Below are positions 53-6,263 of a stretch of 64,000 nucleotides of DNA, one piece after another. Made by a program: the position numbers and the translations under genes. Under the pieces are notes generated by a model. It had not been told where the DNA came from. It made no database searches and saw only the letters and a program-made list of their open reading frames with translations. Source of the DNA: Terasakiella brassicae (GTDB lineage Bacteria > Pseudomonadota > Alphaproteobacteria > Rhodospirillales > Terasakiellaceae); contig NZ_BMHV01000013.1 of the NCBI RefSeq assembly GCF_014641495.1, positions 1-64,000 on the forward strand. Reading direction: 5' to 3'. Position 1 is the first letter of the stretch, and each line of letters starts with the position of its first letter.

Positions 53-114
53 TTATTCCTCCTGTAAATCTCAGTTTAACAGAAGGTGCTCTCCAGTTTT
101 AGGGGACGGGTCCA
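1..114 (-). mobile_element. IS3-family insertion sequence, left end (partial)
   Basis: The minus strand begins at about 114 with TGGACCCGTCCCC, a TG-start terminus of the kind seen at IS3-family ends. An untranslated stretch and a strong Shine-Dalgarno (AGGAGG) follow, then a transposase reading frame that runs off the window. The boundary is inferred from the terminus sequence and from the neighbouring tnsB frame, which stops being transposase-like there. The other inverted repeat and the target duplication lie outside the window. The element sits inside the 3' end of the Tn7-like tnsB gene. Confidence 0.7.
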
Positions 115-1907
115 GTCCTCTTTTTACCTGTTTTCTCAGATGTTTCCCGAATTTTGCGATGAATGCTTTCTTTCGCTTCGGCAAGCGTCTGGGTATCAAT
201 ACCTGCTTCACGTAATTCACGATAATACCTACTAACCACTCTGTGTTGCCAGTATCCCAAGCCTTTCGCGTAGTCTTGTTCAAGTGCAGGTACAGCTAAA
301 TATTCTTCTGTGCGAGGATCTAAAACATAAATTTGCCCAAGATCCATGTGGTCAAATTTAAAATCAACCTTTACTCCTTGCGGGAGGCTATTTCTCATCA
401 CTGATAATTCTGGAGAATTATACCTGAGGCGATTGAACACAATACCCTGGGGATGAAGTCTTCTCTGAGGTTGATTGCCTGCCAGTAAAATGTCTAAATC
501 TTCAGATGATGAGAACAAGCGTGGTGGGAAAACTTCCACTCCCTCTTCCCATCTCTCCAAAGGAATAGCGTTTATTCCTTCATGCATCTGAACAGCGTGA
601 ACATCCACAATCCACTGACAGATCACTTCATCCAGTTTTTCTAATGAAATAATAGCTTCTTCAACGGACTTATATTCCGCTCTGGCATCCACCTTATGGA
701 ATGTTTTGCCAGGAGCTTGAGATAAAAGAGAACGACTAATTTCTCCAAGAAACCTCTCGACGGTACCCTTAGTCCAAGGTGATTTAACTTTGTTATGTTG
801 AATCAAAATGCCTAACTGTGCACACGCAAGATCTAAATCGTTTGAATGAAATTCAGCGCCATTATCTGTCACCAACATTTCTGGCACACCATAGCAAGGC
901 CACTTCCCTTTAATATCAGGATATCTTTCATTCACCCAATCTTTAGGGGAAAATGCATTTCGAAGGGCCATCATAACTGATGCTGTGCTTGGCGGCTCAA
1001 AGCCCACATAATAGCCAAGAGGCATTCTTGTAAAATGATCAATGACCATAGTCAAAGTCGGACGGCCATATACAATTCTCTCATTCTCAGCAGCAACAAC
1101 CATTATATCCATTACAGTGTGATCAATTTCTATACGTTCTAAAGGTCTCGTGGACTCTGCTCCCTTACCTATATGTCGTGTTTCTTTTTGTGCAATCGCC
1201 TTCCCATAACGGCCCTCAAGGAATGTATACTTATCAAGCTTAGCAATCTCTCGATAAAGCGTTCGAATATTTGGCGTTGGAAGCTGCTCCCATTCAGGGC
1301 GCATTTGATTTTGGCGTTTAATGGCTACAATTACGGCACTGTATACATCAGAAACTCGTGGACGGGTGGTTATGAGAAACCTCTCTTTGATAATTTCCTG
1401 GATTGACTGATGAACCTCGATAGGGAGCTTACTACGTCGATTACCTCTTTTCTTCGTCTTTGGAATCAACGCACATATATCGCAACCACCATCTCGATAT
1501 AACTTCAGCCATCTATATAACTGCTGCCAACTTGGAGGATTAACATCGCCCATTTTTTCTGCAGCTAAGGGAATTACAGCTTTCACCAAATTTTTCCCGG
1601 TTTGTGCAATTTGAGGAAATTCAACCATTTTGATGTATTCCCAACGGCGCATAACCTCCTTCTGGTCTTTCTGAGGTAACGCCGAAAGATCTGCCTTTGG
1701 GGACGATACAATTTTATTTTTTATTGAATGTATTTGCGCATCTCCGACAACCAAAGCATTCGCCAATGTAATTCGGGGAATACGCTGTAATTCACCGTCC
1801 ATTTTCGCTTCGAGTTGAAGGATCCCATTCCCAAGGTTCTGTCGAACTGCAAAAATTTTATCTTTAATTGATAATTCAGTACCGATACCAATTCTAACAG
1901 CACTCAT
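99..1907 (-). pseudogene. tnsB: TnsB-like DDE transposase, 3' end cut by an IS
   Basis: This is the strand-transfer subunit of a Tn7-like heteromeric transposase. An N-terminal helix-turn-helix region (about residues 80-240) precedes an rve/RNase H-fold core whose catalytic residues appear as D262 (in IDHT), D348 (in TDNG) and E384 (in VERF). A beta-barrel-like region follows. The frame is 602 codons, whereas Tn7 TnsB is about 700. The last codons (for GPVP and the stop) come from the terminus of the IS, so the natural C-terminus is lost. In Tn7 the TnsB C-terminus contacts TnsC, so activity is probably impaired. The ATG follows a GGAGGG site and lies one base after the tnsA stop, suggesting translational coupling. 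Confidence 0.85.
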
Positions 1908-1908
1908 G

Positions 1909-2556
1909 CTACCCTCCGTCCGGCCTATAGAGAATAGATTTTGCGTCGAATTTTTGGTCTATATCTGTCCACAAAAGACCTTTGGCAATCATTGCGCAGA
2001 GGTCAAAAAATGTGAGCTCAGTTGACCGCAATTGATCCAAAAGTTCATCAGCTGCGCATGGGCTAAGCACCAATAAATCCAAGACCTTATGAATTTTAAG
2101 CAAGGAAACATTTTGTCTTTGATAACGCAAAATTAGACTAATATTTGCTAAACGCGGTTCTCTGCGAATTTCAACATCAGTCATCACAGAAAAGGGAATA
2201 TTCTGTCCATCATAATACTCTCTAATAACAGGCAGCAAACTGCAGAAAGGTTCCTTTGTCAGGTGTGCGGCAGGTTTCACCTCTATAACAGATAGGCCTG
2301 AGCGCGTTTCTACCAAGAAATCCGGTGTATATTGGCGCTGCTTTCCATTCTGTAGATATTTCATAGGCGTCGGCTGTTCAGCATAACGAAGAACTGCTGG
2401 GTCAAACTCAAGAAGCTTGATCATGTCTCGTTCAATCTGAGACTCCCAATGGATCATTCTGCCCACTTTTAAACTTGGGGATCGGCCAACGACCCGGTGA
2501 GTTGTTCGCCGAACAACTTTTCTGCTACGCGGAGCATTAATATCAAGCTTCTTCAA
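1909..2556 (-). CDS. tnsA: TnsA-like heteromeric transposase endonuclease
   Basis: TnsA makes the 5'-end cuts that let Tn7-like elements excise fully instead of forming cointegrates. The 215-residue protein has a PD-(D/E)xK restriction-endonuclease fold: an early helix with E42, then D79 in TPDF and the pair E92 and K94 in IEVK, preceded by the family-typical EQP at 60-62. A C-terminal helical region follows that would carry the TnsC-contact part. The start is a TTG with GAGG about ten bases upstream. It leads an operon with tnsB and is divergent from an unknown gene. The intergenic region between them carries a 14-bp perfect palindrome that could control both. Confidence 0.85.
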   Translation of the reverse strand: MKKLDINAPRSRKVVRRTTHRVVGRSPSLKVGRMIHWESQIERDMIKLLEFDPAVLRYAEQPTPMKYLQNGKQRQYTPDFLVETRSGLSVIEVKPAAHLTKEPFCSLLPVIREYYDGQNIPFSVMTDVEIRREPRLANISLILRYQRQNVSLLKIHKVLDLLVLSPCAADELLDQLRSTELTFFDLCAMIAKGLLWTDIDQKFDAKSILYRPDGG

Positions 2557-2570
2557 ATTATGCCTCGATT

Positions 2571-2584
2571 ATGAAACGTTTCAT
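2571..2584. promoter_or_regulatory. 14-bp perfect palindrome between tnsA and divergent gene
   Basis: ATGAAACGTTTCAT is a perfect dyad 15 bases upstream of the tnsA start. Related half-sites follow at 2595-2601 (ATTTCAT) and 2638-2645 (ATGAAACG). Around them lie AT-rich near-repeats of the type TCATATTATGCAAC, TCATAATTTGTGCAAC and TTATTTTATGCTAC. This looks like an operator for a dimeric repressor of tnsAB and/or the divergent gene. The binding protein is unknown. Confidence 0.45.
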
Positions 2585-2667
2585 ATTATGCAACATTTCA
2601 TAATTTGTGCAACGATTTATTTTATGCTACTTCTCATATGAAACGCATTATTAAACGAGCAACACTT

Positions 2668-3660
2668 ATGAGTTCTGAGTTCTTCATTGAGCAATTTGAA
2701 AAAATTCAAGGCGCAAAAGCTAAAAGAATGGACTGGCTGGAGCTAGCTTCATGTGTGGAGAAAATGCTCCAAAGCCCAGAACTTTTGAGCGTGTATCCGA
2801 ATAGAGAAGCTTTTTGGAACGATGTGGAACAAGCGACAGGATACAGCCGAAATGCCCTACAACGACAAAGCACAACAAAACGCCTCTTAGAGAATCACGA
2901 AAAAGCGGAAAAAGATTTCCTGCAAGAAATGTTGGGCTTGAAAGAATGGAAGCCAGGAATTGTTGCTGAGATAATTGGTCAATTCCCTAAAATGGAATTG
3001 TACTTTCGAATTTATAAATACGATCCAATGGAAGCGATTAAGCTTCTTAAAAGAATGCAGGAAGAACCTGTCTCAGTTGCTAAAATTCGAGATATATTAA
3101 GTCGCCTCCTTGATAAAAACCCAACTTTCGAGCCTTATACCCCGACACATACGTTTCAAAGCCGTCACAACAAAAGCAGGGCTAATGAAGAAAGAGAACG
3201 AACAGCAGCGCTTGAGCAACAACAGGCTATTATTTATGAAAGCGAGAACGTCAGTATTTATTTCGACCACTTCCAATTTCGCTATGTGAGCATTGACGCT
3301 GTAGCGCTCCAGCACGGTGAAGAAGGTCAAATATCAAATTTAGACGGTTTTCTTATTCTTAAAGGCCTAACTCCAAAAAGAGATAGTACCTTTCAGCGAC
3401 TGCTAGCAACAATTGATTATCGCTCAAGTTTCTTCCGGCACTTGTGGCTATATTCAATGAACACTTCACCATGGCCTTTAGATCAAATCAATTCAGCCAT
3501 TGATGAGCTTGGAATCCAGCAAATTGGTATAATTGAGTATAATCCCAAATCGGGATTAGAAATCATGCGTAAACCTGAAAGCAGTGAAAAACCTATGCGA
3601 TATAATATCGTAATGAACGAAATTATGCGCCAAGGCATCAAAGATTACGGTTTAGCTTAA
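2668..3660 (+). CDS. unknown protein of a Tn7-like element
   Basis: I do not recognise this 330-residue protein. The first half is predicted helical and highly charged and could contain a DNA-binding region (about residues 35-85, with a GYSRNALQRQ segment). A basic linker near residues 155-190 leads to a mixed alpha/beta C-terminal domain (about residues 195-310). No signal peptide, membrane segment, zinc-finger cysteines or TniQ-type features are seen. The reading frame is open from a TTG at 2605, but ATG at 2668 has a weak GAG upstream and leaves room for the intergenic repeats, so I use it; ATG at 2638 is the alternative. It lies between tnsA and the transposon end, divergent from tnsA, and might regulate transposition or be cargo. 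A 19-bp hairpin follows its stop. Confidence 0.7.
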   Translation: MSSEFFIEQFEKIQGAKAKRMDWLELASCVEKMLQSPELLSVYPNREAFWNDVEQATGYSRNALQRQSTTKRLLENHEKAEKDFLQEMLGLKEWKPGIVAEIIGQFPKMELYFRIYKYDPMEAIKLLKRMQEEPVSVAKIRDILSRLLDKNPTFEPYTPTHTFQSRHNKSRANEERERTAALEQQQAIIYESENVSIYFDHFQFRYVSIDAVALQHGEEGQISNLDGFLILKGLTPKRDSTFQRLLATIDYRSSFFRHLWLYSMNTSPWPLDQINSAIDELGIQQIGIIEYNPKSGLEIMRKPESSEKPMRYNIVMNEIMRQGIKDYGLA

Positions 3661-3672
3661 ATATAGAATTTG

Positions 3673-3716
3673 AAATGAGAACACCCCGATAGGGTTGTAT
3701 CGGGGTGTTCTCATTT
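3673..3716. terminator. 19-bp perfect inverted repeat at transposon right end
   Basis: The arms AAATGAGAACACCCCGATA (3673-3691) and its exact complement (3698-3716) enclose a six-base loop. The structure follows the stop of the unknown gene and faces the 3' end of gyrB, so it could end transcription from both sides. Its right arm runs into the first of the terminal repeats, and it may also matter for transposition. Confidence 0.6.
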
Positions 3717-3776
3717 TATGCGTCATAGAATTCGCATTTTATGTGTCAGGTTTCTCACTTTATGAGTCATTTGACA
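3708..3776. repeat. Tn7-like right end with three TnsB-site-like direct repeats
   Basis: Three related 19-mers lie in a row: TTCTCATTTTATGCGTCAT (3708-3726), TTCGCATTTTATGTGTCAG (3731-3749) and TTCTCACTTTATGAGTCAT (3752-3770), with periods of 23 and 21 bp. The last runs into TTGACA, so the minus strand starts 5'-TGTCAA at 3776. Phased roughly 22-bp TnsB sites and TGT termini are the hallmark of Tn7-type ends. Bases 3777-3781 (GGAAC) would be the five-base target duplication if the boundary is right. Confidence 0.7.
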
Positions 3777-3788
3777 GGAACAATCGCC

Positions 3789-6263
<2,475 letters not shown>

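Follow-up and report, generated by a model that had tools for sequence, protein, structure and literature searches.

A Tn7-like transposon end behind gyrB in Terasakiella brassicae points to a recurrent, probably TniQ-targeted attachment site at the gyrB 3' end

We analyzed a stretch of 64,000 nucleotides of the Terasakiella brassicae genome (the window), which is the start of contig C13 in a 3.64-Mb assembly of 83 contigs. Phased repeats there lie between an intact gyrB and the genes of a Tn7-like transposon. With high probability, they belong to the gyrB-proximal end of a Tn7-like element that a TniQ protein targeted to the 3' end of gyrB, which serves as a recurrent attachment site. This explanation builds on direct observation of the position and orientation of such elements relative to gyrB, their ends, their 5-bp duplications, their gene set, their recurrence in what we take to be three proteobacterial classes, and the link between the type of TniQ and the site that is occupied.

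The element end in the window

The minus strand of the window carries gyrB, tnsA, and most of tnsB (1907 down to 115), and a plus-strand gene, ORF351, lies between tnsA and gyrB (Table 1). As in Tn7-like elements generally, the encoded TnsB is a DDE transposase with a Mu-type C-terminus and TnsA is its neighbor. The end itself (3708-3776) contains three repeats spaced 23 and 21 nt apart, of which copies 2 and 3 are 89% identical to copy 1; three phased repeats of such similarity did not arise in any of 200 dinucleotide-shuffled versions of this sequence. The original prediction had described three phased 19-bp repeats ending in TGTCA. Their number and phasing stand, but the units are 18 nt long and TGTCA closes just one of them, the 3' termini of the other two being CGTCA and AGTCA. 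TGTCA also stands at the very tip of the element, where 3772-3776 spell it on the minus strand. Counts of this pentamer across the window are uninformative (138 seen versus 127 expected, no enrichment).

That the repeats are TnsB-type sites at a Tn7-like end, as had been proposed, is borne out by the adjoining tnsA and tnsB and by complete relatives that share such ends. The proposed distance of 12 bp beyond an intact gyrB stop is also exact, with 12 nt between the last base of the element (3776) and the stop, which is whole (TTA on the plus strand, 3789-3791). Tn7 makes a 5-bp target duplication. The partner of the presumed duplication GGAAC is invisible because the contig starts at window base 1.

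Table 1. Features of the gyrB-proximal transposon end and its surroundings in the window
Feature	Position	Strand	Basis or remark
Insertion sequence end, interrupting tnsB; also the contig edge	1-114	.	Repeat copies in the genome; homology to the sister element from 115
tnsB, DDE transposase, C-terminus lost; last few residues are insertion-sequence sequence	99-1907	-	Pfam rve and Mu-transpos_C
tnsA, endonuclease subunit	1909-2556	-	Pfam PF08722 Tn7_TnsA-like_N, E 1.1e-12
Perfect 16-nt palindrome TATGAAACGTTTCATA, candidate operator	2570-2585	.	Between the divergent tnsA and ORF351
ORF351, conserved accessory gene of alphaproteobacterial elements	2605-3660	+	ATG at 2638 gives 340 aa
Hairpin with fully complementary 19-nt arms; scores as an intrinsic terminator for the gyrB sense strand	3673-3716	-	Just inside the end
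Putative TnsB-type site 3, innermost	3708-3725	-	Repeat alignment; motif common to other gyrB elements
Putative TnsB-type site 2	3731-3748	-	Repeat alignment
Putative TnsB-type site 1, outermost	3752-3769	-	Repeat alignment
Terminal 8 bp of the element, TGTCAAAT reading inwards	3769-3776	-	Same 8 bp at both ends of the G054 element
GGAAC, presumed single copy of the 5-bp target duplication	3777-3781	.	By analogy to the flanking duplications of five complete elements
gyrB, intact; presumed attachment site at its 3' coding end	3789-6260	-	NCBIfam and Pfam GyrB

The first 114 bases of the window recur in nine more copies of 111-117 nt (95-100% identity) in the same genome, five of them at contig edges, and homology to the intact sister element of genome G054 starts at window position 115. 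From the look of an OrfA start in the reverse complement, we take the insertion sequence in tnsB to be of the IS3 family. What is left of TnsB is 98.7% identical to residues 1-598 of the 669-aa TnsB of G054. A DNA search of the T. brassicae assembly with the tnsC-tniQ region of the sister matched only the tnsB piece at 115-327, and a search with the left end of the sister matched nothing. A TniQ family search of the same genome also gave no match; it was likewise blank in all 14 control genomes, and therefore the DNA searches were relied on. In place of the complete tnsABC-tniQ set and two ends of a self-mobile element, the window copy thus has a cut tnsB, with tnsC, tniQ, and the far end unmatched, and so is a remnant, or the rest of the element was left unassembled.

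Complete relatives and recurrence at gyrB

A TnsB search in 297 genomes of the same order (E <= 1e-20) matched 46 of them, the T. brassicae genome counted. The best match outside the latter is in G054, from the same genus, at 99% identity, and it belongs to a complete element (G054:C24:149922-172474; 22,553 bp; TGTCA...TGACA) that is flanked on both sides by CAAAG and whose gyrB-proximal end lies 14 nt beyond the gyrB stop. It carries the equivalent of ORF351 (ORF340), tnsA, tnsB, tnsC (332 aa; TniB/AAA_22), and a gene for a 650-aa TniQ with an HTH_17 domain, and then cargo. The TnsC-type AAA+ and TniQ-family proteins are recognized with E values of 1.6e-30 (TniB) and 4.9e-15 (TniQ), respectively, and no tnsE was noticed in passing among the ORFs. 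The cargo of this element (L039:13677-18716) and that of G119 (L041:13666-18673) include type I restriction-modification methylase and specificity subunits, together with matches to the PADLOC candidate defence families PDC-S14 and PDC-M60. The G054 element also has within it an inverted copy of its own left end (G054:C24:165434-165644, equivalent to L040:5434-5644; 84-85% identical) with an extra TnsB-like site, probably a trace of an older nested element.

Ends of the same build lie 9-14 nt past the gyrB stop in seven other genomes (G119, G201, G103, G134, G060, G083, and G293), whose TnsB proteins are only about 38-60% identical to that of the window. A left end with matching sites and a 5-bp duplication, which the original prediction had proposed as a check, was present in five of the eight relatives tried, and the other three gave none. 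Exact flanking duplications delimit complete elements in G054, G119 (16,952 bp, AGGTG), G134 (28,195 bp, CGTGT), G103 (6,189 bp, ATGAC), and G060 (17,441 bp, GGAAG). These five are the matches with end motifs that were kept from a scan for ACA followed by the duplication, which returned ten matches; the five without end motifs were dropped. Their ends are of the form TGT...ACA with several putative TnsB-type sites, as in Tn7-like transposons. In G103, an internal deletion joins tnsB residues 1-260 to tniQ from residue 401 (L056:12267-13761; also L095, Thalassospira profundimaris WP0211), and the deleted 6.2-kb element retains both ends and its 5-bp duplication. In G201, the left end adjoins a second gyrB-type end and shows no duplication, and a further gyrB-type end lies directly outside the left end of G134: elements have stacked at the gyrB site. 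For G083 and G293, the stretches examined did not reveal a left end. For two further related elements (G157 and G101), the neighbors were listed and the ends not located. In a tblastn search of plasmids with TnsB, all of the matches listed (at least 5000 records) were under 60% identity. As a separate observation, two end sequences follow gyrB in Methylobacter sp. KS41 (L133), one beginning 4 nt and the other 45 nt beyond the stop, an arrangement that would result if an element had jumped into the end of an earlier one.

To gauge the breadth of this association, the TniQ proteins of seven gyrB elements were aligned (A2), and a search of 84,980 genomes with this alignment returned 92 candidate stretches, which reduce to 42 loci that we assign, from the record titles, to the Alpha-, Beta-, and Gammaproteobacteria. 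A gyrB gene was found in 41 of the 42 genomes: within the locus in 15, in larger stretches in 3 (L087, L089, and L093), and by genome search in 23 of the remaining 24, the search of L121 giving none. Judged by eye, 38 of these 41 have a Tn7-like end that begins with TGT, continues into TnsB-type repeats, and is 2-16 nt away from the gyrB stop on its downstream side, which answers the proposal to look for such ends near gyrB in related genomes. The exceptions are a scar (L124), a locus with no end (L125), and an ambiguous case (L128); the loosest of the 38 are L149 and L140, and in L130 and L148 the contig stops within 62 nt of gyrB. A single contig carries gyrB and tniQ, in one orientation, in 26 of the 38 (13 in the locus, 3 in the larger stretches, and 10 by contigs of equal length). 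For the remaining 12, the two genes are on separate contigs or were not established to share one. Across 41 measured gaps, namely the 38 together with the window, G119, and G201, the distance from stop to end is 9-14 nt in 12 alphaproteobacterial cases and 2-16 nt (median 3) in the 29 others. The TniQ/TnsD-type protein that the original prediction had asked for is present in the intact relatives, at about 620-660 aa. A second, shorter TniQ is encoded upstream of the long one, with a gap of at most about 2.2 kb, in eight of the nine beta- and gammaproteobacterial elements examined (L102, L104, L109, L112, L116, L118, L120, and L123), and possibly represents an extra target pathway.

Of 32 comparison gyrB loci, 2 are carriers (the window and G054), and among the remaining 30, in line with the suggested comparison with empty loci, 27 have no end. 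The other 3 have an end or a scar: a full gyrB-type end follows gyrB in G029 (L184), which is not among the genomes with a TnsB match in the search above, and single-site scars are seen in G016 and G027. Four of the five genomes with a distant TnsB have an empty gyrB locus (G042, G057, G067, and G079), the fifth being G027 with its scar. Repeats without a transposon, which the original prediction had named as a finding that would speak against it, therefore do occur, though weakly; because complete elements occupy the same spot elsewhere, the simpler reading is that these three are remnants, and the G029 end is that of a cargo-only or decayed element.

The 110 nt downstream of gyrB were also scored statistically for three phased repeats. 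The carrier set comprised 42 sequences (44 less 2 that were too short), including the three without a clean end as well as the window, G119, and G201. Values of p < 0.01 were obtained for 28 of these 42 versus 1 of the 30 controls, the latter being G029 with its real end. The other 14 sequences fell short of the 0.01 level, and 7 of the 42 have p above 0.05, among them L149 (p 0.59) and L099, L106, L131, and L150 (p 0.085-0.124). One control without an end, G037 (L164), reached p 0.015.

These data bear on whether gyrB is read at all. The elements might instead land anywhere, with only those insertions that fall between gyrB and its terminator being tolerated and inherited. The stop-to-end gap of 2-16 nt is looser than would be wanted from a single fixed complex, and several copies are decayed or stacked and could reflect old vertical inheritance, both of which would suit such a passive hot spot. 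Yet the 26 single-contig cases share one orientation and one side of gyrB, an end is found at gyrB in 38 of 41 genomes of what we take to be three classes, two elements with a diverged TniQ are located elsewhere, and 27 of the 30 comparison loci are empty, including those of four of the five distant-TnsB genomes. We accordingly regard undirected landing as highly improbable.

TniQ, ORF351, and the terminator-like hairpin

The recurrence at gyrB goes together with a particular type of TniQ, and this co-occurrence is the basis for considering the homing to be guided by a protein. The 650-aa TniQ of G054 is of the long kind with a C-terminal HTH array, comprising HTH_17 and a predicted total of about five winged-helix units. 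Its C-terminal half is alignable in all seven alphaproteobacterial gyrB elements of A2, and an alignment of 31 TniQ sequences, including beta- and gammaproteobacterial proteins, has conserved positions up to the C-terminus. In an AlphaFold2 model (pLDDT 83.6), the TniQ fold extends over residues about 32-350 (Z 17-19 against the five best solved TniQ chains), and residues 355-647 form about five predicted winged-helix units, of which those at 356-413 and 543-597 match MerR-type and Xis folds (Z 8-8.8). Profile comparison relates units 1, 2, and 4 to each other and unit 5 to them via 1 and 2, and leaves unit 3 unsupported by sequence. The solved TnsD chains 8v32, 8glu, and 8glw align over the TniQ core only and are uninformative on the C-terminal array. 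Available passages of an earlier study describe TnsD-like proteins with multiple C-terminal HTH domains (PMC10293859).

Related elements in other places had been named in advance as a second finding that would count against a gyrB site. Two such elements exist, but neither has a TniQ with a full-length match to the gyrB type. In G251, related TnsA, TnsB, and TnsC and a relative of ORF351 accompany an end about 190 nt upstream of rplM, the gene for ribosomal protein L13; its TniQ has 487 aa and matches over the first ~370 residues, alignment of the C-terminus being lost. The second element of G153 (G153:C20) has its end about 11 nt from a tRNA-Met gene, and its TniQ aligns weakly (23%, residues 36-510, nothing beyond). 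The location of both elements away from gyrB thus fits targeting by TniQ, and because the G153 protein still aligns weakly, only G251 offers a clear contrast between TniQ types.

Across 41 carriers, and in the 30 comparison loci alike, the final gyrB codons show conservation of their first and second positions. Passages of the glmS work describe the same codon-position pattern for the TnsD site (PMC2918618). This conservation is consistent with reading of the gene end and is no proof of it, because the protein would conserve its end anyway and the comparison loci do likewise. Our best inference, by analogy with TnsD at glmS, is that the conserved 3' coding sequence of gyrB is what TniQ recognizes. 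In the mechanism that we propose, the TniQ/TnsD-type protein would bind the conserved last codons of gyrB through its C-terminal winged-helix array and, once bound, would recruit TnsC; TnsA and TnsB would then join the element to the DNA 2-16 nt beyond the stop, always facing the same way, and GyrB would stay whole. The copy in the window would later have been cut in tnsB by the insertion sequence. The role of TniQ as the reader of gyrB, the bases read, and the following of TnsC are what we infer here.

A different candidate for the selector is ORF351, with TniQ serving only as an adaptor, as with TnsF in Tn6022. ORF351 has no match in Pfam or NCBIfam, and a sequence search of solved structures gave nothing convincing (best E 0.47). 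Its homologues are 35-95% identical in six relatives and 22% in G251. In an AlphaFold2 model from eight sequences (pLDDT 78.7), the N-terminal half resembles, by VIA-align, the DNA-binding domains of Noc (Z 8.8), Spo0J (8.7), KorB (8.0), and ParB (7.7 and 7.2), and the C-terminal half resembles PaqCI (Z 9.9), a fold that, from the restriction enzymes matched, we take to be of the PD-(D/E)XK class. ORF351 is thus predicted to combine a ParB/Noc/KorB-like DNA-binding domain with a PD-(D/E)XK-fold domain, with the proviso that such Z scores may reflect common structural arrangements. Conservation in the alphaproteobacterial elements, a predicted DNA-binding domain, and the position on the gyrB side would all suit a selector, and selectors of the TnsF type are described in passages of PMC10293859. 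Against this, tblastn (E up to 1e-4) finds ORF351 in just 6 of the 42 loci, each with an alphaproteobacterial record title, and has no match in the beta- and gammaproteobacterial loci; six of the eight betaproteobacterial loci examined have instead an HTH gene of Xre look before tnsA, one of them confirmed by Pfam; and G251 has an ORF351 relative yet is not at gyrB. Site choice by ORF351 is therefore, if anything, slightly less probable than undirected landing, and we read the protein as a probable regulator of the tns genes. In two further alphaproteobacterial loci (L092 and L093), the same position is occupied by an ORF with about 19% identity.

A perfect palindrome before tnsA was considered as a general operator and rejected, being present in only four of the ten elements examined: TATGAAACGTTTCATA occurs in the window and in G054, and other perfect ones in G060 and G293. 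Palindromes with one mismatch are found in G119, G134, G103, G201, G251, and G083.

The hairpin in the window overlaps the innermost putative TnsB-type site. In a scan allowing loops of at most 8 nt, terminator-scored hairpins were found within 220 nt past gyrB in 17 of the 42 sequences of the carrier set, the ambiguous L145 included, whereas shuffled sequences would give 2.0; among the 30 comparison loci, 5 have one. A terminator inside every gyrB element end is thus not the rule: it is common rather than universal (17/42), and the complete G054 and G119 ends are not scored as such. In these two, a hairpin is visible by eye immediately beyond the left end, which is where the native gyrB terminator would lie after being displaced by the insertion. 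The element's own hairpin, where present, may take over termination of gyrB. Neither does such a hairpin belong to the transposon alone, given the G054 hairpin outside the left end and a similar one in G067, of the same genus, that lacks TnsB-type sites; because of the latter, hairpin and repeats are separable. It is hardly credible that repeats and hairpin are simply the normal gyrB 3' region of this lineage, as terminator or regulatory repeats without a transposon end, for although G067 has its hairpin after gyrB without repeats and G016 has one TnsB-like site and a hairpin without a TnsB match, complete elements with matching ends and duplications occupy the same spot in five genomes, and tnsA and tnsB adjoin.

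Relation to known Tn7-like systems and implications

A Tn7-like transposon inserted behind gyrB under the direction of TniQ most closely recalls Tn7 itself. According to passages of published accounts, the TnsD site is the last 36 bp of glmS, with insertion about 20 bp past the stop (PMC2918618), and the TnsB sites of Tn7 are clustered at the end nearest the attachment gene (PMC11406308). Both systems have tnsA, tnsB, tnsC, and a TniQ/TnsD gene, and both enter, with a fixed orientation, just behind the stop codon of a conserved gene that is essential; the elements described here differ in using gyrB, in lying 2-16 nt past the stop, and in having ORF351 or an HTH gene before tnsA. The gene parE is a paralogue of gyrB. 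The type I-F3 CAST Tn7017 (EasCAST) is described, in the part of the source available, as having a TniQ/TnsD aimed at parE, together with CRISPR-Cas and a second TniQ for RNA-guided insertion (PMC11406308). It resembles the gyrB elements in that a TniQ-family protein directs insertion beside the gene for a type II topoisomerase B subunit. It differs in the gene, parE versus gyrB, and in carrying CRISPR-Cas: in the five complete gyrB elements there is no CRISPR-like array (no triple of identical 22-mers spaced 50-85 nt), and no cas genes were recognized in the ORF lists or in the subset of proteins scanned. Tn6022, which per partial texts uses TniQ and a recombinase-derived TnsF at comM (PMC10293859) and inactivates comM by inserting in it (PMC11406308), shares the Tn7-like core and a dedicated selector for a conserved gene, whereas the gyrB elements leave their gene whole. 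Also comparable are the G251 and G153:C20 elements, which have related TnsA, TnsB, and TnsC (G251 also with ends of the same motif and the ORF351 relative) and differ in their diverged TniQ and their location at rplM and tRNA-Met.

Targeted insertion of Tn7-like elements beside conserved genes is known from passages of PMC11406308 for glmS, parE, tRNA genes, yhiN, and comM. Within the portions available of the literature on gyrB or DNA gyrase with Tn7 terms, supplements being outside this scope, no report of gyrB as a Tn7-like attachment site was found, and a prior notice is possible. The same holds for the available portions of PMC10293859, PMC8649781, PMC11406308, PMC12452197, PMC2918618, PMC10702557, PMC5955447, PMC2936356, PMC13055272, PMC10763512, and PMC9951949, which carry no mention of such a site; the string "gyr" is absent from the main text of PMC10293859, PMC8649781, PMC11406308, and PMC10702557. 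Elsewhere in these excerpts, gyrB figures as a typing or qPCR marker or, in PMC2936356, as a gene near the origin. Because this literature gave no mention of it, we consider gyrB a new attachment gene for a known kind of element.

We lean, with some reserve, toward a wider formulation: gyrB would be a widespread and unreported proteobacterial attachment site for one Tn7-like lineage, in which a TniQ module of about five winged helices reads roughly the last 36 bp at codon-constrained bases and many elements bring their own terminator, so that the essential gene keeps its 3' end. In any event, related elements appear to have landed at the end of gyrB repeatedly, in dozens of bacteria, without damage to the gene. 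The classic "safe site" system is Tn7 at glmS, from which widely used tools for genome insertion derive. Another essential gene served by a protein-guided Tn7 lineage, across what we take to be three proteobacterial classes, provides a natural data set that links the TniQ C-terminus to target DNA, and the gyrB site is a possible new site for protein-guided insertion. For the biology of these bacteria, the gap behind gyrB is an island site and a place in which to seek mobile cargo.
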